A stretch of 57,033 nucleotides of DNA from a virus. The notes beneath the pieces are model-generated. The model did not search any database. It was not told where the DNA came from and was given only the letters and a program-made list of their open reading frames with translations. The stretch covers positions 1 to 57,033 of the IMG/VR virus record IMGVR_UViG_3300027741_000075; one strand, given 5' to 3'. This document shows positions 28,953 to 56,273 of the stretch, one piece after another (position 1 is the first letter of the stretch; each line of letters begins with the position of its first letter). Both the position numbers and the translations under genes were made by a program.

Positions 28953-29001
28953 CAACACTACCAAAAATAGTTGTTGACTTACCTACCCAACCTGTTAAAC
29001 T
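28940..29001 (+). promoter_or_regulatory. Early promoter module with overlapping inverted repeats
   Basis: TGTTG (28940-28944) pairs with CAACA (28953-28957); AACAAC (28951-28956) pairs with GTTGTT (28970-28975) overlapping the -35 TTGACT (28974-28979). A TAAACT at 28996-29001 is a fair -10 with 16-nt spacing. Confidence 0.75.
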
Positions 29002-29031
29002 AGAGTCTGTTGAGTTGATAAAGGAAATGAA

Positions 29032-31038: not shown

Positions 31039-31145
31039 TGTTGTATAAAAACAACATCTATGAAAATAGTTGTTGACAGTCTTCCTGATTGTGTTATACT
31101 TTGTATTGAGTTGATCGTGACTCAGCAAAAACAAGTTCTTTAACA
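31039..31145 (+). promoter_or_regulatory. tRNA operon promoter module with boxA-like leader
   Basis: TGTTGT (31039-31044) pairs with ACAACA (31051-31056), and AACAAC (31050-31055) with GTTGTT (31069-31074). The -35 is TTGACA (31073-31078), the -10 TATACT (31095-31100). The leader carries GTTCTTTAACA (31135-31145), matching rRNA-operon boxA antitermination sites (TGCTCTTTAACA). Confidence 0.8.
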
Positions 31146-31168: not shown

Positions 31169-31242
31169 TGGGGGTTAGTGTAGCGGTAGCACACCAGACT
31201 TTGACTCTGTTAGCACAAGTTCGATCCTTGTACCCTCTGCCA
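31169..31242 (+). tRNA. tRNA-Gln (TTG)
   Basis: Cloverleaf with anticodon loop CTTTGAC, T-loop TTCGATC and encoded CCA. The 1:72 position is a U-U mismatch, compatible with GlnRS preference for a weak first pair. Confidence 0.95.
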
Positions 31243-31249
31243 AATAAAA

Positions 31250-31324
31250 GGTGACATAGCACAGCGGTAGTGCATCTGCTTCATACGCAGGAGGTCGTTG
31301 GCTCGAATCCAACTGTCACCACCA
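31250..31324 (+). tRNA. tRNA-Met (CAT), elongator type
   Basis: Cloverleaf with anticodon loop TTCATAC and fully paired acceptor GGTGACA/TGTCACC; CCA encoded. Paired 1:72 excludes initiator. A lysidine-modified tRNA-Ile2 is the alternative reading of CAT. Confidence 0.88.
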
Positions 31325-31327
31325 AAT

Positions 31328-31402
31328 GGGGGTATAACTTAACGGCTAAAGTAGTAGGCTTTTAACCTATTAATCCGAGTTCGATTCTCGGTGCCCCTAC
31401 CA
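31328..31402 (+). tRNA. tRNA-Lys (TTT)
   Basis: Anticodon loop CTTTTAA on a TAGG/CCTA stem, T-loop TTCGATT, encoded CCA. Confidence 0.95.
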
Positions 31403-31414
31403 GTTTTCTTTGGT

Positions 31415-31490
31415 GTGACCTTAGTGTTAGCGGTCAGCACCTCGGATTGTGATTCCGATAGGATGGGTTCAAATCCCATAGGTCACCCCA
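31415..31490 (+). tRNA. tRNA-His (GTG)
   Basis: Anticodon loop TTGTGAT, acceptor GTGACCT/AGGTCAC, discriminator C, encoded CCA. The base before position 1 is T, not the usual encoded G(-1). Confidence 0.93.
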
Positions 31491-31499
31491 AAGAAAATT

Positions 31500-31574
31500 G
31501 CCTTGTTAACTCAGCGGTAGAGTGTCTCCCTTACAAGGAGAAGGTCGGCAGTTCGATCCTGTCACAAGGTACCA
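31500..31574 (+). tRNA. tRNA-Val (TAC)
   Basis: Anticodon loop CTTACAA on TCTCC/GGAGA, acceptor GCCTTGT/ACAAGGT, encoded CCA. Confidence 0.95.
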
Positions 31575-31580
31575 GATTTT

Positions 31581-31654
31581 GCTCGGTTAGTTAAATGGTA
31601 TAACGGACGCTTGATAAGCGTTTATCACAAGTTCAATTCTTGTACTGAGCACCA
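31581..31654 (+). tRNA. tRNA-Ile (GAT)
   Basis: Anticodon loop TTGATAA on GACGC/GCGTT, acceptor GCTCGGT/ACTGAGC, encoded CCA. Confidence 0.95.
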
Positions 31655-31657
31655 AAT

Positions 31658-31734
31658 GCCCCTGTGACGGAATTGGTATACGTGTTGGTCTTAGAAGCCA
31701 AATTTTTGGAGTTCGAGTCTCCACGGGGGCACCA
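31658..31734 (+). tRNA. tRNA-Leu (TAG)
   Basis: Anticodon loop CTTAGAA, acceptor GCCCCTG/CGGGGGC, encoded CCA. The variable arm is very short for a leucine tRNA. Confidence 0.9.
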
Positions 31735-31742
31735 AGTATTTT

Positions 31743-31817
31743 GCGCCTTTAGTGAAATGAATATCACACCTTGCTACGAACGAGGAATTGGGAGTTTGAT
31801 TCTCTCAGGGTGCGCCA
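31743..31817 (+). tRNA. tRNA-Arg (ACG)
   Basis: Anticodon loop CTACGAA (A34 probably edited to inosine by host TadA), discriminator G, encoded CCA. The T-loop reads TTTGATT. Confidence 0.92.
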
Positions 31818-31819
31818 AT

Positions 31820-31895
31820 GCAACTTTAGCTGATGTGGTCATAGCGGTGGTCTGAAGAACCATTGAAAGAGGTTCGATTCCTCTAGGTTGCACCA
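31820..31895 (+). tRNA. tRNA-Phe (GAA)
   Basis: Anticodon loop CTGAAGA on GTGGT/ACCAT, acceptor GCAACTT/AGGTTGC, encoded CCA. Confidence 0.93.
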
Positions 31896-31901
31896 AGATA
31901 T

Positions 31902-31991
31902 GGAAGTGTGGCAGAGTCCGGTTTATTGCACCTGTCTTGAAAACAGACGAACAGAAATGTTCCGTGAGTTCGAATCTCACCGCTTCCGCCA
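31902..31991 (+). tRNA. tRNA-Ser (TGA)
   Basis: Anticodon loop CTTGAAA, long variable arm (class II), acceptor GGAAGTG/CGCTTCC, discriminator G, encoded CCA. Confidence 0.95.
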
Positions 31992-31998
31992 AAGTTAT

Positions 31999-32086
31999 AG
32001 AGAGTTGCCTGAGTGGTTAAAGGAGCGGTTTGCTAAACCGTCATTGCGAAAGCGGTGCATGAGTTCGAATCTCATACTCTCTGCCA
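31999..32086 (+). tRNA. tRNA-Ser (GCT)
   Basis: Anticodon loop TTGCTAA, long variable arm, acceptor AGAGAGT/ACTCTCT, discriminator G, encoded CCA. Confidence 0.94.
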
Positions 32087-32087
32087 G

Positions 32088-32192
32088 TGTTGAAAAAAAA
32101 CAACAGTTACCAAAAATTGTTGTTGACAAAAAATGTCTAGAGTGTTATACTCTATTCATAGATTGAGAAATCAATCAGATGTTCTTTAAAAA
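32088..32192 (+). promoter_or_regulatory. Second tRNA promoter module with boxA-like leader
   Basis: TGTTG (32088-32092) pairs with CAACA (32101-32105), which can also pair with TGTTG next to the -35. -35 TTGACA (32123-32128), 17-nt spacer, -10 TATACT (32146-32151). The leader has GTTCTTTAAAAA (32181-32192), very like rRNA boxA of betaproteobacteria. Confidence 0.8.
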
Positions 32193-32198
32193 ATATAT

Positions 32199-32274
32199 GC
32201 ACGGTTCGTCTATCGGTTTAGGACACATGCCTTTCACGTATGTAAGACGGGTTCGATTCCCGTACCGTGTACCA
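32199..32274 (+). tRNA. tRNA-Glu (TTC)
   Basis: Anticodon loop CTTTCAC, acceptor GCACGGT/ACCGTGT, encoded CCA. It is followed one base later by the structured RNA at 32276. Confidence 0.94.
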
Positions 32275-32275
32275 G

Positions 32276-32477
32276 ATTTAATTACATTGGTTACCAAGCC
32301 AGTAGGTAATTTAACAAGTGAGAACCAGTTGACGGACTGGCACTTCTAGATTACATGAACGAGCGAATCACGCTGGAACAACTTGGTCCGTAATGTGGTT
32401 GACAAACAAATCCATGGACGGCATGGTAGGGCAGGTTCAAAACTGTTATTTTTGTCAATCATCCAGTGTAATTAAAT
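32276..32477 (+). ncRNA. Structured RNA domain 1 (about 202 nt)
   Basis: Ends of the domain pair over 15 bases (32276-32290 with 32463-32477, one G-U). Inside are AAGTG-x4-CCAGT with ACTGG-CACTT (about 32320-32348), AGCG/CGCT (about 32364-32376), ATTAC/GTAAT, CCATG/CATGG and TTGACAAA with TTTGTCAA. No convincing protein frame. It fills the gap between tRNA-Glu and domain 2 exactly. Comparable in place, not in sequence as far as I can tell, to the stable RNAs C and D in the T4 tRNA cluster. Confidence 0.7.
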
Positions 32478-32478
32478 G

Positions 32479-32687
32479 TGGTATTAGTTGTATCGTTTTG
32501 GAAAAATCCTGTGTCCACTTGGATAATGCACTGGCAATGTAATGGATTCTAGATTGAAGTTACACACAGTTGTGCCAAACGAAAGCAAGGTTAACATCGG
32601 CCGATGTCCTTGTATAAGGTTTGGGCGATAAAAGCAAACGGCAGTAGGGTGATTGCTGTCCATAACAAAACGATACAACTAATACCA
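32479..32687 (+). ncRNA. Structured RNA domain 2 (about 209 nt) with perfect 22-bp closing stem
   Basis: Positions 32479-32500 are the exact reverse complement of 32666-32687. Inside are CCAAAC/GTTTGG, CAAGG/CCTTG and the palindromic ACATCGG/CCGATGT as one nested arm (about 32577-32625). The 3' end reads ACCA and abuts tRNA-Tyr by one base. It begins one base after domain 1. No known family is recognised. Confidence 0.75.
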
Positions 32688-32688
32688 T

Positions 32689-32781
32689 GGAGTAATTGAT
32701 GCTATGGCGTGTGCATCCTCAGACTGTAAATCTGATCCCTCTGGGTAAACATTCTTGGTTCGACTCCAAGTTACTCCACCA
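32689..32781 (+). tRNA. tRNA-Tyr (GTA)
   Basis: Anticodon loop CTGTAAA, long class II variable arm as in bacterial tRNA-Tyr, acceptor GGAGTAA/TTACTCC, encoded CCA. Confidence 0.95.
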
Positions 32782-32787
32782 AGTTTT

Positions 32788-32863
32788 GGTCTTAAAGTGT
32801 TCATGGACGCACGATGGCTTGTCACGCCATAAGAGTGGGGATCGTTACCCCCTAAGACCGCCA
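32788..32863 (+). tRNA. tRNA-Asp (GTC)
   Basis: Anticodon loop TTGTCAC on ATGGC/GCCAT, acceptor GGTCTTA/TAAGACC, discriminator G, encoded CCA. The T-loop ATCGTTA departs from the usual TTCRANY and the outer T-stem pair is T-C, so it may be less stable. Confidence 0.88.
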
Positions 32864-32885
32864 GATTTTTTATACATAATAGTAT

Positions 32886-32962
32886 GTGCGTGTGTAGCTG
32901 AACGGTTAGGCACGGGATTGCAAATCCCTTTTATGCAGGTTCGAATCCTGTCACGCACTCCA
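32886..32962 (+). tRNA. tRNA-Cys (GCA)
   Basis: Anticodon loop TTGCAAA, acceptor GTGCGTG/CACGCAC, discriminator T (U73 is CysRS identity), encoded CCA. Confidence 0.95.
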
Positions 32963-32967
32963 ATTTT

Positions 32968-33043
32968 AGCGGGTTACGTCAGTGGTCAGACTATCAGGCT
33001 CATAACCTGGAAGACGGAGGTTCGAATCCTTCACCCGCAACCA
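32968..33043 (+). tRNA. tRNA-Met (CAT), initiator-like
   Basis: Anticodon loop CTCATAA. With six paired acceptor bases GCGGGT/ACCCGC, position 1 is A opposite A72: an unpaired 1:72, the key initiator feature for formylation. Only two of the three G-C pairs of the initiator anticodon stem are present (AGG/CCT). Encoded CCA. Confidence 0.85.
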
Positions 33044-33050
33044 GTTTCAT

Positions 33051-33125
33051 TCCAGAGTAGCACAGCGGTAGTGCAGTTGACTGTTAATCAATTGGTCGTA
33101 GGTTCGATCCCTGCCTCTGGAGCCA
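33051..33125 (+). tRNA. tRNA-Asn (GTT)
   Basis: Anticodon loop CTGTTAA on TTGA/TCAA, acceptor TCCAGAG/CTCTGGA, discriminator G, encoded CCA. Confidence 0.95.
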
Positions 33126-33140
33126 TTAACAAAGAAAAAT

Positions 33141-33884
33141 ATGAAAAAAATAATCTTGTCTCTATTCATGTTGACATGTTTGAATGTTAATGCTGTTACA
33201 GTCTACGCATATAATATTACAAAACAACATCCGATTGTTGATTTTGAAATCGATACAATCAGACCAATAGCAAGTATTACCAAACTAATGACTGCACTAG
33301 TATTGATTGAGAGTGGACTTCCTTTAGATGAGAAAGTTCCATATAAAGGAATGTTCTATTCACATAATAAGTTTACTAGAGAAGAGTTGTTGAATTTGAT
33401 GTTAGTCAAAAGTGACAACAGAGCGGCAGAAGCATTAGCAGAAAGCATGGGCGGTAAACTATGGACAGTTTATCAAATGAACAAACGTGCAATTGCGCTT
33501 GAGATGTACAATACAAAATTTGATGACACGTTTGGTCTAAGTGCAAAGAACACCAGCACCGCAAGAGATTTAGTTATTCTGTTGACAGATGCATACAAGC
33601 ATGATAAAATACGTGAAATATCAGCATTAAGTAGATATGATTTGACAGTTGTAGATAAGAAGAATAAAGAGAAACACATTTCTGTCAATAACACTAACGT
33701 GAAGTTGATGAACAAATTTGATATCATTGAAGTTTCTAAAACTGGCACAACGAATGCGGCTGGTAAGTGTCTTGTGATGATCGTACATAAGAATGGTGAA
33801 CAGTATGCTATTGTTATTCTCGGAGGCACAACAAGAGCCGATGTTGATAACTTAGCGAAGAATATTATGGAGAAAGTAATTTAA
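33141..33884 (+). CDS. D-alanyl-D-alanine carboxypeptidase/endopeptidase (S11, PBP7-like)
   Basis: A 247-residue exported protein with a signal peptide (residues 1-18, ends VNA). All three active-site motifs are present: SITK (Ser45, Lys48), SDN (91-93) and KTG (200-202). It lacks the C-terminal domain and membrane anchor of DacA-type proteins, so it is like soluble PBP7. In the periplasm it would trim or cut peptidoglycan cross-links. It sits between tRNA-Asn and tRNA-Thr without an own promoter, so it is probably read from the tRNA operon. Confidence 0.88.
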   Translation: MKKIILSLFMLTCLNVNAVTVYAYNITKQHPIVDFEIDTIRPIASITKLMTALVLIESGLPLDEKVPYKGMFYSHNKFTREELLNLMLVKSDNRAAEALAESMGGKLWTVYQMNKRAIALEMYNTKFDDTFGLSAKNTSTARDLVILLTDAYKHDKIREISALSRYDLTVVDKKNKEKHISVNNTNVKLMNKFDIIEVSKTGTTNAAGKCLVMIVHKNGEQYAIVILGGTTRADVDNLAKNIMEKVI

Positions 33885-33890
33885 GTTTTA

Positions 33891-33964
33891 GCCCTATTAG
33901 TATAATGGCATTACACCTGTTTTGTAATCAGGTTACGGCAGTTCGATTCTGTCATGGGGCACCA
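33891..33964 (+). tRNA. tRNA-Thr (TGT)
   Basis: Anticodon loop TTTGTAA, acceptor GCCCTAT/ATGGGGC, encoded CCA. The innermost anticodon-stem pair is T-T. Confidence 0.92.
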
Positions 33965-33973
33965 GTATAAATA

Positions 33974-34050
<77 letters not shown>

Positions 34051-34054
34051 ATTT

Positions 34055-34129
34055 GGGGGATTAGTGATAATGGGAGCACATGTGCTTTGCAAGCATGAAG
34101 TGGGAGTTCGATCCTCCCATCCTCCACCA
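34055..34129 (+). tRNA. tRNA-Ala (TGC)
   Basis: Anticodon loop TTTGCAA, acceptor GGGGGAT/ATCCTCC. The G3-U70 AlaRS identity pair is present (third base G against T). Encoded CCA. Confidence 0.94.
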
Positions 34130-34159
34130 TTAATTTAGAAAATAAAGTGAAAGTATAAA

Positions 34160-34606
34160 ATGTTATATTTAATAAAATCGTTTACTGATAGTGTAATGAG
34201 TATGTTAAGTGAAGACCCTGTGCGTCCTCATATTCCGCATGTTGACAGAGTTGGTGACAACAAAGATATCTTTGTATTACGTGACGAAACTGAACAAGTG
34301 AAAGCAATTACATGCGTGAGTTATCAAACAGAAATTCCAACAAAAGAAACAGAGTTGTTTCAGATATCAACTGAACCTGTTGTTGCAATCTTTTATACCA
34401 TCTGGAGTTATGCTCCAGGTGCCGGTCGTACATTAATTTTTGATGCTGTTAGACACATCAAAGAAAACAAACCAGAAATTCAAAGATACGTTACGCTAAG
34501 TCCTAAGACGGAAATGGCTAAACGTTTTCATATGCGTAATGGTGCAGTTGTTTTCAGAGAGAATGAGGACACAGTTAACTATGAATATCATAGGGTGATT
34601 TTATGA
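34160..34606 (+). CDS. GNAT-like acetyltransferase-fold protein
   Basis: A 148-residue protein. The pattern VVAIFYTIWSYAPGAGRTLI, then a helix and YVTLSPKTEMAKRFHMRNGA resembles the acetyl-CoA-binding and final strands of GNAT proteins, and similar proteins are found in T4-like cyanophages. No substrate can be proposed. Confidence 0.55.
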   Translation: MLYLIKSFTDSVMSMLSEDPVRPHIPHVDRVGDNKDIFVLRDETEQVKAITCVSYQTEIPTKETELFQISTEPVVAIFYTIWSYAPGAGRTLIFDAVRHIKENKPEIQRYVTLSPKTEMAKRFHMRNGAVVFRENEDTVNYEYHRVIL

Positions 34607-34833
34607 TTGATAAAAAGAATATTGAGGCCGGCGAAGAAATTCATTCTGATAAAGGATACGAATTAGGCACTAAAGAAGGCTATGAAGCATTTGCTAAGAA
34701 ACGCCAAGAAGCCGCATTAGATGAAATGGTTCGTATCAGCCAAGAGATGGGTTTGTATGATGATGAGTTTGAAGAAATTCACAAATACAATGAAGAGACT
34801 AAAGAAGTTAAATTTAGACAGACATACAAATGA
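34603..34833 (+). CDS. Small charged protein
   Basis: A 76-residue very acidic/basic helical protein; overlaps both neighbours by 4 nt. Unknown, but T4-like phages often carry such a gene beside the GNAT-like one. Confidence 0.5.
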   Translation: MIDKKNIEAGEEIHSDKGYELGTKEGYEAFAKKRQEAALDEMVRISQEMGLYDDEFEEIHKYNEETKEVKFRQTYK

Positions 34834-35489
34834 AAGTTGAATTACATAAATTATTCTATACTCCAGTTTGGAGATTTTTCTATCCAAACTTTGAGAATGA
34901 CCAAGAATTCTTAGTACGATATCTTGCACAAGATCATCTGTATCTTTCGGAACGTGAGAAGAATGGACTTCAAATCACTAGAGCAAATTTACACAAAGAT
35001 GCTAAAGTAAAAAAGTTAACAGACTTCATTCATAGTTGTGGTAAGTATGCAATGGATGATATGGGTTACTATGATGAGTGTGGCATTACAAGTATGTGGG
35101 CAACTAGACAGAAAGCAAAAGGCTTTCATCATATGCATAGTCATGCAAATAGTTTCTTAGGTGGTTCATTTCATTTGTTTGATGCTGATGGCAATGCAAG
35201 CGGAACAGTATTTCCAAATCTAGGTGCAGAGAAGTATGTAATACAACCTGCAATCTCAGGTAAGAATGAATTGATGTTGAAGTCACAGGAAGAAATGGAA
35301 TTTATTGCAGGCACGTTAGTTATGTTTCCCTCATGGGCGACACATCAAACAAGTCCTACTGATTGCAATTATAGAATCATTGTTGGTGTGAACATCATGC
35401 CAATTGGTAAAACTAATTTTGACCACTTTGATAGATATGATTTTCCTGATACAGAAAATATGCAATTGATGGAGTATGGTGATGAGTAA
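34830..35489 (+). CDS. 2-oxoglutarate/Fe(II)-dependent oxygenase
   Basis: A 219-residue cupin-fold oxygenase of the 2OG-FeII_Oxy_5 type. The metal triad fits His in FHHMHSHANSFLGGSFHLFD, an acidic partner a few residues on, and His in FPSWATHQTSP, with Arg in NYRIIVGVN for 2-oxoglutarate. Such phage oxygenases are common in T4-like marine phages; substrate (protein, DNA base or metabolite) is unknown. Overlaps the second oxygenase gene by 8 nt. Confidence 0.8.
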   Translation: MKVELHKLFYTPVWRFFYPNFENDQEFLVRYLAQDHLYLSEREKNGLQITRANLHKDAKVKKLTDFIHSCGKYAMDDMGYYDECGITSMWATRQKAKGFHHMHSHANSFLGGSFHLFDADGNASGTVFPNLGAEKYVIQPAISGKNELMLKSQEEMEFIAGTLVMFPSWATHQTSPTDCNYRIIVGVNIMPIGKTNFDHFDRYDFPDTENMQLMEYGDE

Positions 35490-36009
35490 CTTTAGATTCA
35501 TTGAAACTGGAATTGATATAAGTAAAATTCTTGGGCAGATCGATGACAAAGATTGGCAAGCAGTTTCCACTTATTCTAAAATTGGTGGAGAACAAAACCC
35601 ATATGGATTTCTTCCTTTAGTAATGGCGATGGTTCGTAGTGCTGATGAGAATCCTAAAAATTCTGATTTGCAAAGACGCACACCGCTTTACGATAAATAT
35701 ACAGAAGTAAGAAAGTATCTTAAGAAGCATAATATTACGCAAACTTCAAGAGCCGCTTTCTTTAAATTAAATCCGAATGATAGTGTTGGTCGCCATGTTG
35801 ATGATGGCACATATTATGCAACAAGAGATAGATATCATTTATCATTGCAAGGCACTTACTTGTATGAAGTAGATGGTGAAGAAAGACAAATAGAACCAGG
35901 AACATTTTTCTGGTTTGACAATAAGAAATATCATTCTGCGTGGAACAATGGTACAGTAGACAGAATTACATTCGTGTTTGATGTACCACATTCTGCAAAG
36001 AATCCGTAA
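35482..36009 (+). CDS. Aspartyl/asparaginyl beta-hydroxylase-like oxygenase
   Basis: A 175-residue protein. FFKLNPNDSVGRHVDDGTYY (His...Asp), DRYHLSLQGTY, and KKYHSAWNNGTVDRITFVFD (His...Arg) give the Fe(II)/2-oxoglutarate site of the Asp/Asn hydroxylase family. I chose the ATG at 35482 for its GGAG spacing. It likely acts with the overlapping upstream oxygenase. Confidence 0.82.
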   Translation: MSNFRFIETGIDISKILGQIDDKDWQAVSTYSKIGGEQNPYGFLPLVMAMVRSADENPKNSDLQRRTPLYDKYTEVRKYLKKHNITQTSRAAFFKLNPNDSVGRHVDDGTYYATRDRYHLSLQGTYLYEVDGEERQIEPGTFFWFDNKKYHSAWNNGTVDRITFVFDVPHSAKNP

Positions 36010-36014
36010 CAAAT

Positions 36015-36088
36015 GTCTCCTTAGTATAATGGCAGTACTGCGGTCTCCAAAACCGTAAGTGGGAGTTCGAGTCTCTCAGGGGATGCCA
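36015..36088 (+). tRNA. tRNA-Trp (CCA)
   Basis: Anticodon loop CTCCAAA on GCGGT/ACCGT, discriminator G, encoded CCA. Confidence 0.95.
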
Positions 36089-36095
36089 AAAAAAT

Positions 36096-36169
36096 GCGGG
36101 GTTCGTATAGTGGTAATACCTTAGCCTTCCAAGCTAAAGCGAGGAGTTCGATTCTCCTACCCCGCTCCA
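36096..36169 (+). tRNA. tRNA-Gly (TCC)
   Basis: Anticodon loop CTTCCAA on TTAGC/GCTAA, acceptor GCGGGGT/ACCCCGC, discriminator T, encoded CCA. Confidence 0.96.
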
Positions 36170-36170
36170 C

Positions 36171-36199
36171 TTGACAAATCAATCAATACAAACTATACT
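36171..36199 (+). promoter_or_regulatory. Third tRNA promoter
   Basis: TTGACA (36171-36176), 17-nt spacer, TATACT (36194-36199). Lies between tRNA-Gly and tRNA-Arg; no boxA-like motif or GTTG/CAAC repeat accompanies this one. Confidence 0.88.
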
Positions 36200-36220
36200 A
36201 CATGTATAGAAATTAAATAA

Positions 36221-36297
36221 CTGCCCTTAGTTCAGTTGGATAGAACAGCGGTCTTCTACACCGCATGTCGGGAGTTCGAATCTCTCAGGGCAGGCCA
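36221..36297 (+). tRNA. tRNA-Arg (TCT)
   Basis: Anticodon loop CTTCTAC on GCGGT/ACCGC, acceptor CTGCCCT/AGGGCAG, discriminator G, encoded CCA. Confidence 0.95.
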
Positions 36298-36302
36298 GTT
36301 AT

Positions 36303-36386
36303 GCGAGAGTGGTGGAATGGTATACACAGGAGACTTAAAATCTCCCGCCGCAGGGATTGAGGGTTCGAGTCCCTCCTCTCGCACCA
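36303..36386 (+). tRNA. tRNA-Leu (TAA)
   Basis: Anticodon loop CTTAAAA on GGAGA/TCTCC, longer variable arm, acceptor GCGAGAG/CTCTCGC, encoded CCA. Confidence 0.95.
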
Positions 36387-36390
36387 GTAT

Positions 36391-36466
36391 GGGCTGATAG
36401 CTTAACGGTTAAAGCAGAGGACTCATAATCCTTTGAGTGGGGGTTCGATTCCCTCTCAGCCTACCA
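36391..36466 (+). tRNA. tRNA with CAT anticodon (Met or lysidine-type Ile2)
   Basis: Anticodon loop CTCATAA, acceptor GGGCTGA/TCAGCCT, encoded CCA. It is the third CAT tRNA here. One of the CAT tRNAs is probably tRNA-Ile2 that needs host TilS to read ATA; which one cannot be decided by eye. Confidence 0.9.
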
Positions 36467-40576: not shown

Positions 40577-40662
40577 GTTGTTTTTTTACAACATTTTGGC
40601 TGTTGCAGAAACCCCACAAAACTAAAAATAGTTGTTGACTTCCTCGGTAGGACCTGTAGAAT
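40576..40662 (+). promoter_or_regulatory. Early promoter module
   Basis: TGTTGT (40576-40581) and ACAACA (40588-40593) form a hairpin with a T6 loop. Further on come TTGACT (40635-40640) inside AAATAGTTGTTGACT and the -10 TAGAAT (40657-40662), 16-nt spacing. Here the second CAAC element is farther from the -35 than in the other copies. Confidence 0.8.
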
Positions 40663-40695
40663 AGACTTTGTTGATTGAGAAAACAAAGGAAATTT

Positions 40696-41947: not shown

Positions 41948-42008
41948 TGTTGCATAAAAACAACAGAGTGAAAAAACTTGTTGACATTCCCGCCTATTGT
42001 GTTATACT
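41948..42008 (+). promoter_or_regulatory. Early promoter module
   Basis: TGTTG (41948-41952) pairs with CAACA (41961-41965). -35 TTGACA (41981-41986), 16-nt spacer, -10 TATACT (42003-42008). The second GTTG half-site is reduced to CTTGTTGAC here. Confidence 0.8.
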
Positions 42009-48174: not shown

Positions 48175-48996
48175 ATGGGGATACACTATACAACAACAAG
48201 TAAAAGGGCTCCAATGGCAAGAAAATCAGGTACAACTAAAACTGCAAATACCGAACCCGATATTCCATCATCATCAACACCAAGAACTAAATCTGTCAAT
48301 AATACACTCAGACTCAGATTAGATGATTTAAAAACTTTTGATCCATTAACAGACAATCAAAAAATCTTTTTTGATGCATACAAACGTGGAGACTATTTTG
48401 TAGCACTTCATGGTGTAGCAGGTACAGGTAAAACATTCTGTGCGCTATACAAAGCAATCGAAGAAGTAATGGATAAAGCAAATCCATTTAATAAAATTAT
48501 TGTAGTACGTTCTGCTGTTCAATCAAGAGAGATTGGACATTTGCCAGGTGACGTAAATGAGAAGATGGAAATCTATCAACAACCATATCGCCAAATCTGT
48601 GATACATTGTTTGGACGTAAAGATGCATGGGATAGATTAGAAGAACAAGGACACATTGAATTTATCTCCACATCATTCATTCGTGGTATGTCATTCGATG
48701 ATGCTATCATTATTGTTGATGAAATGCAGAACATGACATTTGAAGAGATAGATACAGTTATGACAAGGGTTGGCTATCGCTCTAAGATTATTTGGTGTGG
48801 TGACTATCGCCAAACAGATTTGAATAAAAAGAAAAATGATGTATCAGGTATTCTCAAATTCTTTGATATTGCATATCATATGAATGCATTCACAAAGATT
48901 GAATTTACTGTAGATGACATTGTTCGTTCTTCATTGGTAAAAGATTATATTTTAGCGAAGTTACAACATGAAGACGGAGTAGAGACTGCTAAATAA
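48175..48996 (+). CDS. phoH: PhoH-like ATPase
   Basis: A 273-residue PhoH protein. The Walker A motif is GVAGTGKTF (about residue 80-88), Walker B IIIVDEMQN, and conserved VRSAVQSREIGHLPG and KIIWCGDYRQTD complete the family. The N-terminal 40 residues are low-complexity; an ATG at 48214 could be the true start. Phage PhoH is common in marine T4-like phages and belongs to the phosphate-stress set of several bacteria, though its phage role is not settled. Confidence 0.93.
   Translation: MGIHYTTTSKRAPMARKSGTTKTANTEPDIPSSSTPRTKSVNNTLRLRLDDLKTFDPLTDNQKIFFDAYKRGDYFVALHGVAGTGKTFCALYKAIEEVMDKANPFNKIIVVRSAVQSREIGHLPGDVNEKMEIYQQPYRQICDTLFGRKDAWDRLEEQGHIEFISTSFIRGMSFDDAIIIVDEMQNMTFEEIDTVMTRVGYRSKIIWCGDYRQTDLNKKKNDVSGILKFFDIAYHMNAFTKIEFTVDDIVRSSLVKDYILAKLQHEDGVETAK
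48988..48995 (+). promoter_or_regulatory. Late-promoter-like motif
   Basis: GCTAAATA overlaps the phoH stop. It shares TGCTAAATA-type sequence with 16532 and 53621, but because AAATAA here is a Lys-stop it may be chance. Confidence 0.3.
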
Positions 48997-49026: not shown

Positions 49027-49695
49027 GTGAACTTTAAACATGTTGGTTGTGATATTGATTATGACCTAGAAACCGAAACAATAAACGGCAAGCGTTTTTA
49101 CAAGACGCCTGAAGGCAATCTATATCCTTCCGTGACTACTATCACATCTCAGCATGGTAAAGATAAAATCATAGAGTGGCGAAAGCGTGTAGGCGAAGAA
49201 GAAGCCAATCGTATTTCAACTAAAGCATCCAGCCGTGGTACTAGAGTGCATAAGATTTGTGAAAATTATTTGAACAACGAAGAAGATTATGCACGTAAGA
49301 CGATGCCAGATTCTGTTGCTATGTTTAAGTCTTTGCAACCTTTATTGGATGAACATGTAAACAACATTCATGCACTAGAGATTCCTTTGTATTCGCATCA
49401 CTTAAAAGTTGCGGGTAGAGTTGACTGTATTGCAGAATATGATGGTAAGTTATCTATCATTGACTTCAAGACTTCAAGCAAGTTAAAAGAAGAGAGTTGG
49501 ATTAAAGGATACTTTATGCAATGTTCTGCCTATGCAGTCATGTATGAAGAACGAACTGGTATACCAGTATCACAAATTGTAATTATGATAGCAGTTGACT
49601 CTGAACATCCACAAGTGTTCATTAAAAAACGCAACGACTACATTAAAGATTTTATTTCTTACCGTGAAGCATATGATGCCGTGCTGATTGACTAA
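49027..49695 (+). CDS. RecB-family PD-(D/E)XK exonuclease
   Basis: A 222-residue nuclease. SSRGTRVHKICENYL is the RecB-type motif with catalytic His; KVAGRVDCIAEYDGK (Asp) and LSIIDFKTSSK (Asp-x-Lys) form the metal centre. Starts at GTG after AGGATAAAA. Conserved in T4-like cyanophages, presumed to process DNA ends. Confidence 0.88.
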   Translation: MNFKHVGCDIDYDLETETINGKRFYKTPEGNLYPSVTTITSQHGKDKIIEWRKRVGEEEANRISTKASSRGTRVHKICENYLNNEEDYARKTMPDSVAMFKSLQPLLDEHVNNIHALEIPLYSHHLKVAGRVDCIAEYDGKLSIIDFKTSSKLKEESWIKGYFMQCSAYAVMYEERTGIPVSQIVIMIAVDSEHPQVFIKKRNDYIKDFISYREAYDAVLID

Positions 49696-49696
49696 C

Positions 49697-49834
49697 ATGA
49701 TATATAGTGATATAATATTATTTATTCTTGTTGTAGGACTACATGCATTTTGGATTTACAAAGTTGCAACCTACGATTGGAATAACTTTGAAGAGGATAG
49801 TAAGGCGGACACTGGTTGGCCACCTTATGATTGA
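49697..49834 (+). CDS. Small membrane protein
   Basis: A 45-residue frame (MIYSDIILFILVVGLHAFWI...) with an N-terminal transmembrane helix and an acidic/aromatic tail. No clear SD, so confidence is limited. It ends just before the tmRNA gene. Confidence 0.4.
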   Translation: MIYSDIILFILVVGLHAFWIYKVATYDWNNFEEDSKADTGWPPYD

Positions 49835-49837
49835 TAT

Positions 49838-49899
49838 TGCTGTATGAAGCAAAGAGAAAAGTGTTCTGGACGGGGGTGCGAATCCCCCCACCTCCACCA
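49838..49899 (+). ncRNA. ssrA: tmRNA acceptor piece (permuted ssrA, upstream part)
   Basis: This part encodes the mature 3' end. T-stem GGGGG (49872-49876), loop TGCGAAT and CCCCC (49884-49888) are followed by CACCTCC (49889-49895) and ACCA. CACCTCC pairs with GGGGGTG at 49988-49994, far downstream, to make the acceptor stem. TGTTCTG (49862-49868) pairs with CAGGGCA (50007-50013) as helix P2, and TGCTGT (49838-49843) with ACAGCA (50030-50035). The 5' end of the piece is approximate. Confidence 0.9.
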
Positions 49900-49987
49900 A
49901 AAGTATTCTAAACTGGACGCAGGATCGAAGAAAGTTGAAAGTGGATTGATCGCCACAAGTATGCTGGAGATTAAGAATGCTTTTGAT

Positions 49988-50155
49988 GGGGGTGACATAG
50001 ATTCGACAGGGCAAAGAGTAACAGAGTGGACAGCACATCAGAGTAGATGTTAAAACTAAAAAAAAGTAAACGCAAACGACTCACAGTTCGCATTAGCCGC
50101 CTAAACTCGGCTTAGGGTTTCGACAGGTTTCCTCGTAACAGAATAACCTGTCACC
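49988..50155 (+). ncRNA. ssrA: tmRNA coding piece with tag ANDSQFALAA (permuted ssrA, downstream part)
   Basis: This part starts with GGGGGTGACATAGATTCGAC, the standard tmRNA 5' sequence. The resume codon GCA is at 50072-50074; the frame reads Ala-Asn-Asp-Ser-Gln-Phe-Ala-Leu-Ala-Ala and stops with TAA at 50102-50104. The stop lies in the loop of AGCCG (50095-50099) and CGGCT (50108-50112), as in helix 5 of tmRNA. GACAGGTT (50122-50129) and AACCTGTC (50145-50152) form a final hairpin. A spacer of 88 nt (49900-49987) separates it from the acceptor piece and should be removed on maturation. Confidence 0.93.
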
Positions 50156-50171
50156 AATTTATGGAGTAATA

Positions 50172-50726
50172 ATGAAAATAACTGATTCGAAAATAATCCC
50201 TGATGTTAAAATCATCAATCTACCTGTCTATAGAGACAATCGTGGTTTCTTTACAGAGACATTCAGACCAGAAGTTGAAGACGCACTTGGCGTAAAATTT
50301 CTTCAAGACAATCAATCCGTATCAAAAAAACATGTTCTAAGAGGTATTCATTTCCAATGGGACAAACCAATGGGTAAATTGGTTCGTGTCACTCATGGAT
50401 ATGGACTTGATGTTGCAATTGATTTACGAAAAGACTCTCCAACATACGGACAGTATCATGCTGAGTTATTAGGACCAGAATCAAACAATCAGTTATGGGT
50501 ACCAGCAGGTTTTGGTCATGCGTTTCTTTCATTAGGAGAATATACGCATCTAATGTACAAATGCACAGCAGTACATAATTCCAAAGCAGAAGCCGCAATT
50601 AATCCATTTGATAAAGATTTGAATATCGATTGGCAAACAATTGATAAAATTGAAGACTTCATTCTATCAGACAAAGATAGAGCCGCAGGTTCTTTCGCAG
50701 ATTATAAACTAAATCCAAAATTCTAA
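50172..50726 (+). CDS. rmlC: dTDP-4-dehydrorhamnose 3,5-epimerase-like
   Basis: A 184-residue cupin sugar epimerase. FTETFRPEVEDALG, LRGIHFQWDKPMGKLVRV (catalytic His), and WVPAGFGHAFLSLGEYTHLMYKCTAVHN (split: WVPAGFGHAF, YKCTAVHN) match RmlC. It starts a four-gene sugar cluster. dTDP-sugar precursors would come from the host, since RmlA and RmlB are not in the window. Confidence 0.9.
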   Translation: MKITDSKIIPDVKIINLPVYRDNRGFFTETFRPEVEDALGVKFLQDNQSVSKKHVLRGIHFQWDKPMGKLVRVTHGYGLDVAIDLRKDSPTYGQYHAELLGPESNNQLWVPAGFGHAFLSLGEYTHLMYKCTAVHNSKAEAAINPFDKDLNIDWQTIDKIEDFILSDKDRAAGSFADYKLNPKF

Positions 50727-50728
50727 TT

Positions 50729-51694
50729 ATGAAAAATATTCTTATCGTTGGTGGCGCAGGCTACATTGGCACAAGACTCTCTAATCACTTGAGTACCCGC
50801 ATGGGATACAAAGTGCATGTTATTGATAACTTTTGGTTTGGTGATAACTTAACTAAAAGCATTTCAAAAGAAAAGAAAAGTTTATGGGATATTAAACCGG
50901 AAGACTTGACAACATATGATGCTGTTTTGTTTCTTGCTGGATTGTCTAATGATCCGATGGCAATGTTCAGACCAGACTTAAACTTTATTGAGAATTCTTC
51001 TGCACCAATGTATCTTGCATTCATTGCTAAAGAAGCTGGTGTGAAACGTTTCATTTGTGCAAGTTCTTGTAGCGTATATGGATTCACAAAAAACAAGACA
51101 TTAAATGAAAGCAGTCTTGTTAAACCTGCATATGCATATGGTATTTCTAAACTACAATGTGAACGTGGTTTAGAAACTTTAGAAGATGATAACTTTAAAC
51201 CGATTGTATTCCGTAAAGGCACAGTTGGTGGATGGTCACAAAAAATGCGCTATGATTTAGTTGTAAACACTATGTTGAAGAGTGCATTCACTACACAAAA
51301 GATTGTAGTTAATAATCCAAAGATTTGGCGCCCACTTGTAGATATTCGTGATGTGATTCAGGGATATCAAAAAGCGTTAGAAGCAGACTTGAATGTGTCT
51401 GGTGTTTATAATCTTTCTGGCGGCAATATGACGATTGGTCAGTTGGGTGAAGCAATTCACGGAGAGTTGAGAAAAAGAGGATATGTTGTTGACTTAGTTA
51501 TCAATGAAAACAATGATGTTCGTAACTACAAAGTGAGTACGGAAAAGATTGAGGATGAGTTAGGATTCAAAGCACAGTTTACCCCTCTAGATTCTTTGGC
51601 TGAAATACTTGACAATATGGATCCGTTAAGCTATAATTTCGATAGTGATGAATATTCTAACATAACAACATTTCAGAAAGTTTTAGGCAAATGA
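50729..51694 (+). CDS. NAD-dependent sugar epimerase/dehydratase
   Basis: A 321-residue extended SDR protein. The NAD-binding GGAGYIGTRL motif is at the N-terminus, ASSCSVYGF with YAYGISKLQCE gives Ser and Tyr-x-x-x-Lys, and RPLVDIRDVIQGYQKALE is the C-terminal substrate region. Specificity (GDP, UDP or dTDP sugar) cannot be told. Overlaps the RmlD-like gene by 4 nt. Confidence 0.88.
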   Translation: MKNILIVGGAGYIGTRLSNHLSTRMGYKVHVIDNFWFGDNLTKSISKEKKSLWDIKPEDLTTYDAVLFLAGLSNDPMAMFRPDLNFIENSSAPMYLAFIAKEAGVKRFICASSCSVYGFTKNKTLNESSLVKPAYAYGISKLQCERGLETLEDDNFKPIVFRKGTVGGWSQKMRYDLVVNTMLKSAFTTQKIVVNNPKIWRPLVDIRDVIQGYQKALEADLNVSGVYNLSGGNMTIGQLGEAIHGELRKRGYVVDLVINENNDVRNYKVSTEKIEDELGFKAQFTPLDSLAEILDNMDPLSYNFDSDEYSNITTFQKVLGK

Positions 51695-52380
51695 AAATTT
51701 TGTTAACTGGTGGGTCAGGACTTCTTGGTAGAAATTTAATTCGTCATTTAAGAGTAAAAGGACATGAAATCATTGCGCCCAATAGTAGTGAGTTAGACAT
51801 TACTGATCCACTCTTCTTTATACTATTTGATTGTGATTTGGTTATTCATTGTGCGGCTATTGCAAAATTTGCTGATGCGGAAAAAAATCCTATTGACACA
51901 ATTGAAACAAACATTCAAGGCACATGTAACGCATTAAAACATGCGATGAGTAAGAATGCTAGATTTGTTTTTATTTCATCGTCACATGTATTCGATGGAC
52001 AAAAAGGAAACTACACACATACAGATTTGCCTAATCCATTAACACGATATGCAAAATCTAAAGTTGCTGGTGAGATGGCTACTCTAATTTATGAAAAATC
52101 TTTAGTGATACGAACAGAATTTTGCGATGTTGATTTTCCATTTAACACAGCATTTACAGATAAGTATTCATCTAAAGAGTACATAGATATCATTGCACCT
52201 AAGATTGCAGAGAAATGTTTAAGTGAACAAACAGGCATTTGTCATGTTGGTGGACCTAGACGTTCATTCTATGAGTTTGGACAATTGAGAAACCCAAATG
52301 TAAAACCTGGATCAGTTGAGAATTTATTAAAAACAAGCACAGTACCGATTTTGATAGATACAAGTTTAATTGAAAATTGA
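51691..52380 (+). CDS. RmlD-like sugar reductase (short)
   Basis: A 229-residue SDR protein. LLTGGSGLLGRNLIRHL is the NAD(P)-binding motif, VFISSSHVFDGQKGNYT and NPLTRYAKSKVAGE (Tyr-x-x-x-Lys) the active site. At 229 residues it is shorter than typical RmlD (about 300), so the C-terminal substrate domain is reduced. With RmlC it could complete a deoxysugar. Confidence 0.85.
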   Translation: MKILLTGGSGLLGRNLIRHLRVKGHEIIAPNSSELDITDPLFFILFDCDLVIHCAAIAKFADAEKNPIDTIETNIQGTCNALKHAMSKNARFVFISSSHVFDGQKGNYTHTDLPNPLTRYAKSKVAGEMATLIYEKSLVIRTEFCDVDFPFNTAFTDKYSSKEYIDIIAPKIAEKCLSEQTGICHVGGPRRSFYEFGQLRNPNVKPGSVENLLKTSTVPILIDTSLIEN

Positions 52381-52387
52381 GGACACA

Positions 52388-53626
52388 ATGGCATCAACAG
52401 TAATTGCACACATTTATAATGAAGAATATATTCTACCTTGGTGGCTAGAACATCATAAGAAAATTTTTGATCATGGTATCATTATCGACTATGCATCTAC
52501 AGACAGGTCCCGTGAAATCATCAAAGAGATTTGTCCAACATGGGAAGTTGTACAATCTAAAAATTCAGAATTTAATGCTAGACTTGTTGACGTTGAAGTA
52601 TTAGAATATGAACGTAAGATTGAAGGCTGGCGCATTTGTTTAAATGTCACAGAATTCTTAGTTGGTGATTACAAAAAGTTTTTAGTAGACACCATTAGGT
52701 CTACACAACATTTAATTCCTACAATTACATTTTGGGATTGGAATCCAAACGGTGAGTTAGACAGAACTAAACCTTTGTGGGCACAGAAGAAACAAGGTAT
52801 TCACTATAAGACAGACTTCATGGCTCGCCGTGCTAGAAGTTTGCATAATGTGAAGACGATGGAATATGATGTTGGTCGTCATTTTCCTACACACAATAAT
52901 GAAGAGATGATTATTTTTCATTATGCAAACTGTATTGCTAGTAGAGGTATGCTTGAACGTAGATTGCAGATTCAAACTAAAGTGCCAGAACACGATAGGG
53001 TTCGGGGATGGGGAAGTCATCACTATCATGGACCAAATGGTGTAATGACTGCTGATACTTTAAAAGAATTGTGGAGTAAAGATTTACCTAAAGTGACAGA
53101 CTGTAGCGAAGATATTATTCGATACACTAAAGAGCCTGATGAAACATACGCATTAGATTTAGGATGCGGTGAGTATCCTAAGAATCCATTCAAAGCAAAA
53201 CATCTATATGGCATTGACGTAAGAGATGATACTAAGAATAAAATCACAAAAGCAGATTTAGTTATTGAACCAATTCCATTCATTGATAATTTCTTTGACT
53301 ATGTGACTGCACATGATTTCATCGAACACATTCCTAGACTAATGTATAACCCAAATCGTAGATATCCATTCGTAGAATTGATGAGTGAGATTTGGCGAGT
53401 ACTTAAAGTTGGCGGAAAATTTTATTCCAAAACACCTGCATTTCCACATGCGGCCGCCTTTTGGGATCCAACACATGTGAATATAATCACAGAACAAACA
53501 TTTCCATTTTATTTCGATAATGAAAAGATGTGGGCTAAAGAAGTTTATGGCTTCAAAGGTCAATTCAGAATCGAAAGCCAAACATGGGATGGACCACATT
53601 TACTAAGCACATTAGTCAAATGCTAA
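52388..53626 (+). CDS. Fused glycosyltransferase and SAM methyltransferase
   Basis: A 412-residue two-domain protein. Residues 1-230 are a GT2/GT92-like glycosyltransferase (AHIYNEEYILPWWLEHHKK, IIIDYASTDRS; an Asp-rich motif). Residues about 255-412 are a class I methyltransferase: ALDLGCGEYPKNPF (SAM loop), IEPIPFIDNFFDYVTAHDFI and WRVLKVGGKFY. It probably adds and methylates a sugar, with the upstream sugar genes supplying the donor. I chose the ATG after GAGGA. Confidence 0.8.
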   Translation: MASTVIAHIYNEEYILPWWLEHHKKIFDHGIIIDYASTDRSREIIKEICPTWEVVQSKNSEFNARLVDVEVLEYERKIEGWRICLNVTEFLVGDYKKFLVDTIRSTQHLIPTITFWDWNPNGELDRTKPLWAQKKQGIHYKTDFMARRARSLHNVKTMEYDVGRHFPTHNNEEMIIFHYANCIASRGMLERRLQIQTKVPEHDRVRGWGSHHYHGPNGVMTADTLKELWSKDLPKVTDCSEDIIRYTKEPDETYALDLGCGEYPKNPFKAKHLYGIDVRDDTKNKITKADLVIEPIPFIDNFFDYVTAHDFIEHIPRLMYNPNRRYPFVELMSEIWRVLKVGGKFYSKTPAFPHAAAFWDPTHVNIITEQTFPFYFDNEKMWAKEVYGFKGQFRIESQTWDGPHLLSTLVKC

Positions 53627-54193: not shown

Positions 54194-54391
54194 ATGAGTA
54201 TCGTGAAAAAACAAGTTAACGTTAAAACTTACCAACGCAAAAATGGATATCCACCAAATTACTATGCATCAGAGAGTGATATGAAAAATCCTATGTTTCG
54301 TACCGCAAAGCCTGCAAGTACTCCAAACGCATCTGGAACATTTCGAAATGGGCGAATTACTTCAATGAGAGTTCTAATTGATGAGTCTTAA
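54194..54391 (+). CDS. Small unknown protein
   Basis: A 65-residue basic protein (SIVKKQVNVKTYQRKNGYPP...), with an AAGGAA SD. The KTYQRKNGYPPNYYASESDM segment is not recognised. Overlaps the gp33 gene by 11 nt. Confidence 0.5.
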   Translation: MSIVKKQVNVKTYQRKNGYPPNYYASESDMKNPMFRTAKPASTPNASGTFRNGRITSMRVLIDES

Positions 54392-54620
54392 AATCATAAC
54401 TCAAAAAGAATTTGAGGCAGAGATTAAACAGATACAACGTGATAAACATCCTATTACAATGATTGATGCTATTCTTGAATATTGCACAATCAAAAATGTT
54501 GAAGTTGAAACTGCCGCATCTTTAATTACGCCTCGCATGAAATCTGCTATTGAAGGTGAAGCGATGAAGCTAAAGATGATTGCACCAAAAGCAAGATTGC
54601 CTATTGAGGTGGATGATTAA
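54381..54620 (+). CDS. 33: Late transcription coactivator (T4 gp33-like)
   Basis: A 79-residue protein. TMIDAILEYCTIKNVEVETA, LITPRMKSAIEGEAMKLKMI and the final LPIEVDD fit the gp33 family of T4-like phages, and its place before gp59 and gp32 is the T4 gene order. gp33 bridges host RNA polymerase, gp55 and the sliding clamp at late promoters. It supports the reading of TATAAATA-like sites as late promoters. gp55 itself is not in the window. Confidence 0.8.
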   Translation: MSLKIITQKEFEAEIKQIQRDKHPITMIDAILEYCTIKNVEVETAASLITPRMKSAIEGEAMKLKMIAPKARLPIEVDD

Positions 54621-55216
54621 TGAAAATGGATGCTATAGACGCATACAAAGTTTATTTGGGAGTTAAAAATCACTTCACGCAAGATAGCTACGATTGGTTC
54701 AAGTACAACAAGAAAGTCAATGTCACATACGATTCTTTTTTGAAACGTAAAGACAAAATCTTTTTTGCTAAACTCGGTAATCGTAAGGATGCTTACTTAG
54801 AAGAATTTTTAGTTTCTAACTTCTTGCACGACACAAAAATTTGGGTTGGCGAACTTCTATCTGAAGAGTGTGAAGAACGCTACAAAGAATGGAAACGTAA
54901 ACAAGAATCTTTAACGTATGTATTTAAAAATGAGATGGATTTTATCTCTGGTTGGAAGCCAGACGAACTGAATGAATTTTTTAATGCTAAAGGTGTCGAT
55001 CATCCACCAATCATCAAGAAATATTTAAGAGGAGAAATCAGTCTGGAGACACTAGCAATATTGAATTCACTATTGCATTTTGTCAAAAGGTATGATACAA
55101 TGATACATGATCCAATCTACAAAGAGGTAAGCAAGTTATGCAAAAAGTACCAGCCCTTTTTAAATTACGATACGGCAAGGATGAAAAAGTCACTCAGAGA
55201 ATTAGTAGTGACGTAG
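54620..55216 (+). CDS. 59: Replicative helicase loader (T4 gp59-like)
   Basis: A 198-residue helical protein. YKVYLGVKNHFTQDSYDWFK and the LKRKDKIFFAKLGNR block are typical of gp59, as is ETLAILNSLLHFV. It loads gp41 helicase onto gp32-covered DNA at recombination forks. Position immediately before gp32 confirms it. An overlapping frame at 55138 is not a gene. Confidence 0.93.
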   Translation: MKMDAIDAYKVYLGVKNHFTQDSYDWFKYNKKVNVTYDSFLKRKDKIFFAKLGNRKDAYLEEFLVSNFLHDTKIWVGELLSEECEERYKEWKRKQESLTYVFKNEMDFISGWKPDELNEFFNAKGVDHPPIIKKYLRGEISLETLAILNSLLHFVKRYDTMIHDPIYKEVSKLCKKYQPFLNYDTARMKKSLRELVVT

Positions 55217-55367: not shown

Positions 55368-56273
55368 ATGGCATCAACATCATTTGCAGATTTGAAAAAG
55401 TCACGCACCAAAGATTTGGAAAAACTCACAGACGCAGTTTCCAAACTCACAAACAAAGAAGAAGGTAAGAAGTCTTATGAAGACACCCGATTCTGGAAAC
55501 CCACAGTAGACAAAGCAGGTAATGGTTTCGCAACGATCCGTTTTCTTCCCGCACCCGCAGGCGAAGATGTACCTTGGGTTCAAGTTTTCAATCATTCATT
55601 CCAAGGTCCTGGTGGATGGTACATTGAAAATTCGTTGACTACACTCAACAAGAAAGACCCTGTGTCTGAACACAATAGCATCCTTTGGAACTCTGGTTCT
55701 GATGCTAACAAAGATATTGCACGTAAGCAAAAGCGTAAGTTGCAGTATATCGCAAACGTTTATATTGTTAAGGATCCTGCGAATCCTGACAATGATGGAA
55801 CAGTTAAATTGTTCAAATTCGGTAAGAAGATTTTTGACAAGTTGAATGACTTGATGAATCCTGAGTTTGAAGATGAAACTCCTGTCAACCCATTTGACCT
55901 TTGGGAAGGTGCGAACTTCAAGTTGAAGATTCGTAAAGTTGAAGGTTATCAGAACTATGATAAGTCTGAGTTTGAATCACCAGCACCTTTGTCTGGCGAT
56001 GAAGATGATCTAGAACGTATCTGGAAGCAAGAGTTTAGCTTGTCTGAATTCTTGAGCGAAAAGAACTTCAAGTCTTATGATGAATTGAAAGCACGTTTGA
56101 ACAAAGTGCTTGGGCTTGAAGATGGTTCTGCTGGAGATAATTATTACTCCACTAAACCTAACGTACCAGTTACAGCTAAACCTGAGGCAGTAACTAAGCC
56201 AAAGACTACAGTTGCAGATTCAGTTAGTGATGATGAAGACTTGAGTTATTTTGAGAAGTTGGCTGAAGATTAA
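55368..56273 (+). CDS. 32: Single-stranded DNA-binding protein (T4 gp32-like)
   Basis: A 301-residue gp32. The N-terminal basic segment (DLKKSRTKDLEKLTDAVSK) is the cooperative LAST-like region, the OB-fold core contains WVQVFNHSFQGPGGWYIE and YIANVYIVKDPANPDNDG, and the C-terminus is acidic (SVSDDEDLSYFEKLAED). The zinc-binding Cys of T4 gp32 are absent; only Asn/His residues remain in that segment, as I recall for cyanophage gp32 too. Strong independent promoter, followed by a terminator. Confidence 0.95.
   Translation: MASTSFADLKKSRTKDLEKLTDAVSKLTNKEEGKKSYEDTRFWKPTVDKAGNGFATIRFLPAPAGEDVPWVQVFNHSFQGPGGWYIENSLTTLNKKDPVSEHNSILWNSGSDANKDIARKQKRKLQYIANVYIVKDPANPDNDGTVKLFKFGKKIFDKLNDLMNPEFEDETPVNPFDLWEGANFKLKIRKVEGYQNYDKSEFESPAPLSGDEDDLERIWKQEFSLSEFLSEKNFKSYDELKARLNKVLGLEDGSAGDNYYSTKPNVPVTAKPEAVTKPKTTVADSVSDDEDLSYFEKLAED

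Follow-up and report, generated by a model that had tools for sequence, protein, structure and literature searches.

Two-piece tmRNAs, the products of circularly permuted genes, have been described in phages before. The Methylophilales phage Melnitz carries such a tmRNA (Buchholz et al. 2022, PMC9004378), and in the same study 53 of 133 distinct phage tmRNA structures were two-piece (50 from marine or aquatic phages), while a permuted tmRNA was present in 17 of 47 Melnitz-like contigs. In addition, 79 bacteriophage tmRNA sequences were listed in PMC11915505, in which the Rfam model RF04321 was introduced. The gene analyzed here had been predicted from its sequence with an implied novelty that was overstated: two-piece tmRNAs of aquatic phages had already been published (PMC9004378), and therefore the gene adds to a known kind. 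It is not a new kind of gene, permuted phage tmRNAs being already known and abundant in IMG/VR. What goes beyond the original prediction is that the gene resides in a conserved T4-like locus, that the elbow of its tRNA-like head is A18/G55, and that different heads occur within near-identical P2 arms.

The gene is located on a 57-kb linear virus fragment (IMG/VR record IMGVR_UViG_3300027741_000075, 57,033 nucleotides, hereafter the window), which belongs to a phage with T4-like genes, i.e. those for primase, NrdA/NrdB, PhoH, a phrog_298 exonuclease, gp33, gp59, and gp32. The circularly permuted tmRNA occupies positions 49838-50152. ARAGORN and two Rfam models independently confirmed the original prediction, according to which the permuted tmRNA is complete and its tag layout canonical. 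ARAGORN reported a permuted tmRNA (tmRNA*) at 49807-50195 with the tag ANDSQFALAA. The covariance search, an empty outcome of which had been named as refuting the prediction, returned RF04321 tmRNA_permuted (49838-50104, 129.7 bits, E 4e-25, cut-off 47) and RF01850 beta_tmRNA (49774-50169, 114.4 bits, E 4e-34, cut-off 84), both far above the cut-offs. An independent IMG/VR contig, L002, was identical to the window over the 700-bp stretch compared, and thus the tmRNA is no assembly slip.

All parts of the gene are encoded on the plus strand, and the 3' half of the tRNA-like domain is encoded upstream of the 5' half. The predicted coordinates turned out to be base-exact, with the CCA end at 49899, G1 at 49988, 88 nt between them, and the tag at 50072-50104, and the three proposed joining helices (acceptor 7 bp, P2 7 bp, extension 6 bp) are present in the sequence. 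The extension helix is formed by TGCTGT (49838-49843) and ACAGCA (50030-50035). The P2 arm of the 3' (acceptor) piece (49862-49868) pairs upon cofolding over 7 bp with CAGGGCA of the mRNA piece (50007-50013). It is followed by the T-arm GGGGG-TGCGAAT-CCCCC (49872-49888), in which position 55 is a G (49878), and by the acceptor 3' strand CACCTCC with the encoded ACCA (49889-49899), the CCA being 49897-49899 and the mature 3' end 49899. The intervening segment of 88 nt (49900-49987), which would be removed during maturation, contains a clamp helix of 10 bp (49900-49909/49974-49983), with the ACCA opposite a TGAT (49984-49987). The mature 5' end of the mRNA piece, 49988, opens the acceptor 5' strand GGGGGTG (49988-49994), which pairs over 7 bp with 49889-49895 and includes G3-U70 (49990 with 49893). 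The D-loop region ACATAGATTCGAC (49995-50007) contains A18 (49999), where G18 is usual, and G19 (50000). The tag frame ANDSQFALAA extends from the resume codon GCA to TAA (50072-50104), and, as had been claimed, the TAA is in the loop of a predicted hairpin, AGCCG/CGGCT (50095-50112; pairs 50095-50099/50108-50112). Folding of the mRNA piece, which covered hairpins, also yielded the 3'-terminal hairpin GACAGGTT/AACCTGTC (50122-50152), a stem that is modelled in RF01850. The clamp helix and the T-loop TGCGAAT with G at position 55 had been unnoticed.

A promoter-like element, TTGACT-17-TATAAT with a TG before the second hexamer (49688-49716, plus strand), is a candidate for the tmRNA promoter; it has 11 of 12 matches, and such sites are no commoner in the region than in shuffles. 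Elsewhere in the window, a repeated strong sigma-70-like promoter element, AAAAATAGTTGTTGACT...TAnAAT, was observed at 27990-28036, 28964-29010, 31061-31109, 40625-40671, and 41969-42008, which is likely an early promoter family of the window phage. One copy is positioned directly before a cluster of 25 tRNA genes (31169-36466, all on the plus strand), which has anticodons for all 20 amino acids according to ARAGORN and is interrupted by an S11 peptidase gene and by 2OG-Fe(II) oxygenase genes.

The paired elements of the gene were compared across distinct phage relatives. In 175 of these, 88% of the P2 cells were paired, compared with 69% when the partners were dealt anew, and G3-U70 was retained in 172. 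Acceptor pairs 4 and 5 showed type changes on both sides and T-stem pair 2 occurred in all four Watson-Crick types; acceptor and T-stem pairing had been used to parse the relatives, and therefore only their pair-type changes count. For the extension helix the mean was 6.2 bp versus 5.7 bp with partners dealt anew, which lends it weak support. A helix of at least 7 bp, in most cases beginning directly behind the CCA, was present in 111 of 127 distinct intervening segments, while in a control that combined halves from different genes it was found in 27%. TGAT directly preceded G1 in 90 of the 127 segments. Because G3·U70, P2, and the clamp helix covary over 127-175 distinct phage relatives, the tmRNA gene is under selection. 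The intervening segment is no random spacer, and the clamp helix would present both cleavage sites.

The surroundings of the gene match a T4-like (Kyanoviridae-type) locus, with PhoH and an exonuclease upstream and gp33, gp59, and gp32 downstream. On the plus strand of the window, a gene for a PhoH-like protein (48175-48996, PF02562, phrog_170) precedes that of the conserved upstream neighbour, a PD-(D/E)XK exonuclease (49027-49695, phrog_298). Between exonuclease and tmRNA there is a small ORF of 45 aa with a hydrophobic start (49697-49834, plus strand), and a small ORF is found at the corresponding place in the phages HTVC008M, Mosig, and Melnitz. The conserved downstream neighbour is the late-transcription coactivator (T4 gp33; 54378-54620, PF16805), followed by the helicase loader (T4 gp59; 54620-55216, PF08993) and the single-stranded DNA-binding protein (T4 gp32; 55368-56273, phrog_224), all on the plus strand. 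A nucleotide-sugar cassette on the same strand (50172-53626), which starts 20 nt past the last tmRNA hairpin, separates the tmRNA from a cell-wall hydrolase, gp33, gp59, and gp32; it comprises a dTDP-sugar epimerase, two epimerase/reductase genes, and a glycosyl/methyltransferase. An rfbC-like gene was also seen 3' of the tmRNA in contigs L002, L005, L051, and L061.

Among the permuted tmRNA loci of IMG/VR, those with the A18/G55 elbow had the exonuclease upstream in 67 of 110 cases and gp33 downstream in 60 of 110, and those with G18/U55 had the exonuclease upstream in 31 of 90; many loci are cut by contig ends, and therefore these counts are lower bounds. Because it lies in the conserved locus PhoH–exonuclease–tmRNA–gp33–gp59–gp32, the tmRNA is regarded as a long-term property of the phages, which supports the view that T4-like aquatic phages carry a ribosome-rescue RNA as a lasting trait and not through accidental capture. 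Passively carried host DNA without a phage function, i.e. a scar of integration or excision or a recent capture, would be conceivable in that genes for tmRNA often serve as sites of integration and ssrA fragments are known from prophages (PMC9004378). However, the gene is complete and covarying, and it is found at the same T4-like locus although the neighbouring exonucleases are often just 40-55% identical to that of the window, so that passive carriage is already largely refuted and must be rated extremely improbable.

The tag ANDSQFALAA belongs to the ordinary bacterial ANDxxxALAA type and ends in the generic ALAA degron; the majority of relatives whose tags differ retain this end or one like it. 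The exact string was not found in a DNA scan of one genome per species (84,980 species), which was run without a separate positive control. A phage-specific tag, as originally proposed, is conjecture; the absence of the exact string from all sampled cellular genomes speaks for a letter string confined to phages. The single return of the scan, L209 (CAIMDH010000093.1), reads ANDTQFALAA in a permuted tmRNA at 791-1162; the contig has extra tRNAs and a Clp-type protease, the relatives of its bin are all about 0.6-1.7 Mb and mostly devoid of a permuted tmRNA, and the contig is probably a misbinned phage. For this reason an assignment of the host by the tag was dropped. An aberrant long tag, ANVNKTVTVSGKNLKFSARSAKEALAV, was observed in L245, which has a permuted tmRNA with the P2 type of the window; it is possibly frameshifted or decayed.

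SmpB was not found in the window, which is a fragment, so that its absence is not final for the whole window phage, nor was it found in 16 other phage records (11 deposited as complete genomes). For phages without SmpB the host must supply it, and the combination of an ordinary tag with no phage SmpB argues that the RNA operates within the rescue machinery of the host. A phage takeover of ribosome rescue, as suggested in the original prediction, and a phage-specific fate of tagged proteins are conjecture. It is very probable, in our view, that the gene encodes an intact two-piece tmRNA of a T4-like phage that performs trans-translation with the SmpB, alanyl-tRNA synthetase, and proteases of the host, and that it is a long-term resident of its locus. 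The head of the tmRNA appears to have been exchanged repeatedly as a cassette.

The proposed course of events is as follows. One precursor transcript would be made, and the intervening segment would form a helix that continues the acceptor stem by stacking, the helix itself being shown by covariation. The clamp helix may hold the CCA next to the RNase P site. Cleavage by RNase P and by tRNA 3'-end nucleases, at 49987/49988 and 49899, would then yield one acceptor piece and one mRNA piece, kept together by the acceptor, P2, and extension helices, among which P2 and the acceptor are shown by covariation. The conserved G3-U70 pair suggests charging with alanine. The charged RNA would rescue ribosomes stalled on broken messages, which are likely to be plentiful once nucleases of the phage attack RNA and DNA, and would add the tag A-ANDSQFALAA, presumably a normal ClpXP-type degron. 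Most likely the tmRNA is retained because, jointly with a tRNA set covering all 20 amino acids, it helps the phage to keep translation going late in infection.

The role judged most likely is general ribosome rescue in infected cells; we consider selective tagging, a decoy function, and passive carriage less likely. The tmRNA could instead tag host or selected proteins for degradation, for amino acid recycling or the removal of defences, as has been proposed for Melnitz by its authors (PMC9004378), and the absence of the exact ANDSQFALAA from all sampled cellular genomes would fit this. Yet there is no known means by which a tmRNA could choose host messages, and the generic ALAA end is kept here and, in the same or a similar form, in most relatives with other tags, which makes selective tagging improbable. 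It is more improbable still that the RNA is a decoy which captures SmpB or stalled ribosomes and thereby blocks host rescue. Such an action has been reported for a tag-less tmRNA form of phage DS6A (cited in PMC11915505); here, in contrast, the tag frame, the resume codon, the stop hairpin, and the alanine identity pair are intact, as they are in the relatives, and a decoy would not need a tag. The intact G3-U70, ACCA, tag frame, and stop hairpin are consistent with general rescue.

The elbow of the tRNA-like head was analyzed further. The usual base at tRNA position 55 is U (pseudouridine), and the window has A18/G55 and not G18/U55; position 18 corresponds to G13 of the E. coli tmRNA in the alignment made in this analysis. 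Across 212 sequences positions 18 and 55 switch together. In 139 parsed viral sequences U55 was always accompanied by GG and G55 by AG, apart from four exceptions, namely two G55 sequences with an ambiguous AGG and two U55 sequences with the GG shifted by one base. A larger G55 set comprised 103 sequences with AG and eight with AGG, the latter being ambiguous because the A18 call depends on the spacing. Doyon and colleagues reportedly found in 2004, in suppressor tRNA selections, that U at position 55 needs G at position 18 and G at position 55 needs A. The coordinated elbow states of the phage genes are a natural test of this rule, according to which the base at 55 determines the purine permitted at 18.

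The A18/G55 elbow is common to the phages HTVC008M, Mosig, CcrPW, Bajun, Cp1R7A-A1, and Melnitz. It is an alphaproteobacterial-type feature: the alphaproteobacterial Rfam consensus (RF01849), from which alone the state of the Alphaproteobacteria was taken, is A18/G55, and the betaproteobacterial consensus (RF01850) is G18/U55. The idea that A18/G55 is a phage invention was dropped in view of the former. Plasmid queries gave only matches to the tRNA-like end, plus one beta-type tmRNA with the standard elbow (Pandoraea). The G55 T-loop pattern also caught a sole one-piece tmRNA (L268, 1822-2187, tag ANQDDYFEYALAA), which would test whether the elbow swap reaches beyond permuted genes.

The window tmRNA is a chimera, because its elbow is of the alpha type and its body is of the beta type, the score with RF01849 alpha_tmRNA being only 54 bits (cut-off 50) versus 114 bits with RF01850. 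In a tree of the neighbouring exonuclease with 93 loci, the elbow type changes at least seven times, and six of the changes are forced by well-supported branches. A quick tree of the tmRNA, in which both positions were masked, contained six independent pairs that change together on supported branches and none in opposition. Each of two P2 arm types was found with both heads (type I with 37 and 19, type II with 2 and 5), and the left arm matched the right in 60 of 63 cases. L043 (G18/U55) and L291 (A18/G55) have the same P2 arm over 34 nt and agree in 40 nt on the opposite side, yet the heads are different throughout; likewise, L134 (G18/U55) has the 34-nt arm of the window exactly. The heads between identical arms differ in the T-stem, acceptor pairs 4-5, the T-loop, the length of the D-loop, and the intervening segment.

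In the permuted gene the T-arm, the acceptor, the intervening segment, and the D-loop are contiguous between the P2 arms, and therefore an exchange at the arms would carry the entire head along. These arrangements suggest that the permuted layout may let recombination exchange the head as one cassette. Accordingly worded, the permuted tmRNA of T4-like phages would be a two-layer mosaic at a fixed locus, in which recombination in the P2 arms swaps the head cassette and the elbow passes as a whole from G18/U55 to A18/G55 or back, with no broken intermediate; we give this reading an even chance of being right. Repeated double substitutions in place are possible but less probable. A change at one of positions 18 and 55 always comes with a change at the other, as would be expected of a tertiary pair, and the intervening segments evolve too fast to show which copy came from where; however, substitutions in place do not fit with the difference of the whole head between identical P2 arms (L043 versus L291, L134 versus the window). 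If exchange of the head by recombination is true, it would be a concrete evolutionary consequence of gene permutation, which makes the tRNA-like domain one exchangeable DNA block.

Permuted tmRNAs were also found in phages of Xanthomonas, Stenotrophomonas, Bordetella, Alcaligenes, Caulobacter, Brevundimonas, and Mesorhizobium. Xanthomonas itself belongs to the bacteria with a one-piece tmRNA. Most of the tmRNA copies in the named phages checked are unannotated, including those of L210 (2974-3402), L214, L215, L216, L217, L300, and L301, which are named phages of Xanthomonas, Bordetella, Alcaligenes, Caulobacter, and Mesorhizobium. A group with the tag ANDAQFALAA encodes ACCT and not ACCA (L125, L130, L133, L138, L141, L157, L159, L168, and L201), and therefore the last A would need to be added or repaired by a CCA-adding enzyme.

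Among the described systems, Melnitz (MZ577097) is like the window in that it is a T4-like Kyanoviridae phage with a two-piece tmRNA and an A18/G55 elbow. In Melnitz, PhoH and the PDDEXK nuclease are followed by two small ORFs, ssrA, gp33, gp59, ThyX, and gp32; the order of the genes from PhoH to gp32 is the same in the window, which in contrast has the sugar cassette between tmRNA and gp33. Melnitz differs in its tag, ANDNYVPVDYALAA, and its T-loop, GGCAGTA with G54; moreover, its authors report a glutamine riboswitch (PMC9004378), whereas an Rfam scan of the window at the gathering threshold gave the tmRNA and tRNAs only. The Pelagibacter phages HTVC008M and Mosig share with the window the permutation, the A18/G55 elbow, and a nuclease and a small ORF upstream, but have other tags (ANFNEYALAA and GEDNFALAA, respectively). 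Mosig is above the cut-off with RF01849 and not with RF01850, and HTVC008M reaches 83.8 bits with RF01849. The RF01849 consensus, with the D-loop uAGGAUCGAC and the T-loop GGCgGUA, has A18/G55 as in the window, but G54 and G58 in place of U54 and A58. The window matches the full RF01850 model and agrees with it in P2, body, tag type, and final hairpin, but has A18 (49999)/G55 (49878) where the consensus is G18/U55. Phage tmRNAs of the betaproteobacterial type in the ANDAQFALAA group (e.g. L046, L133) share the P2 arm type and the locus of the window, but, unlike the window, they carry the G18/U55 head.
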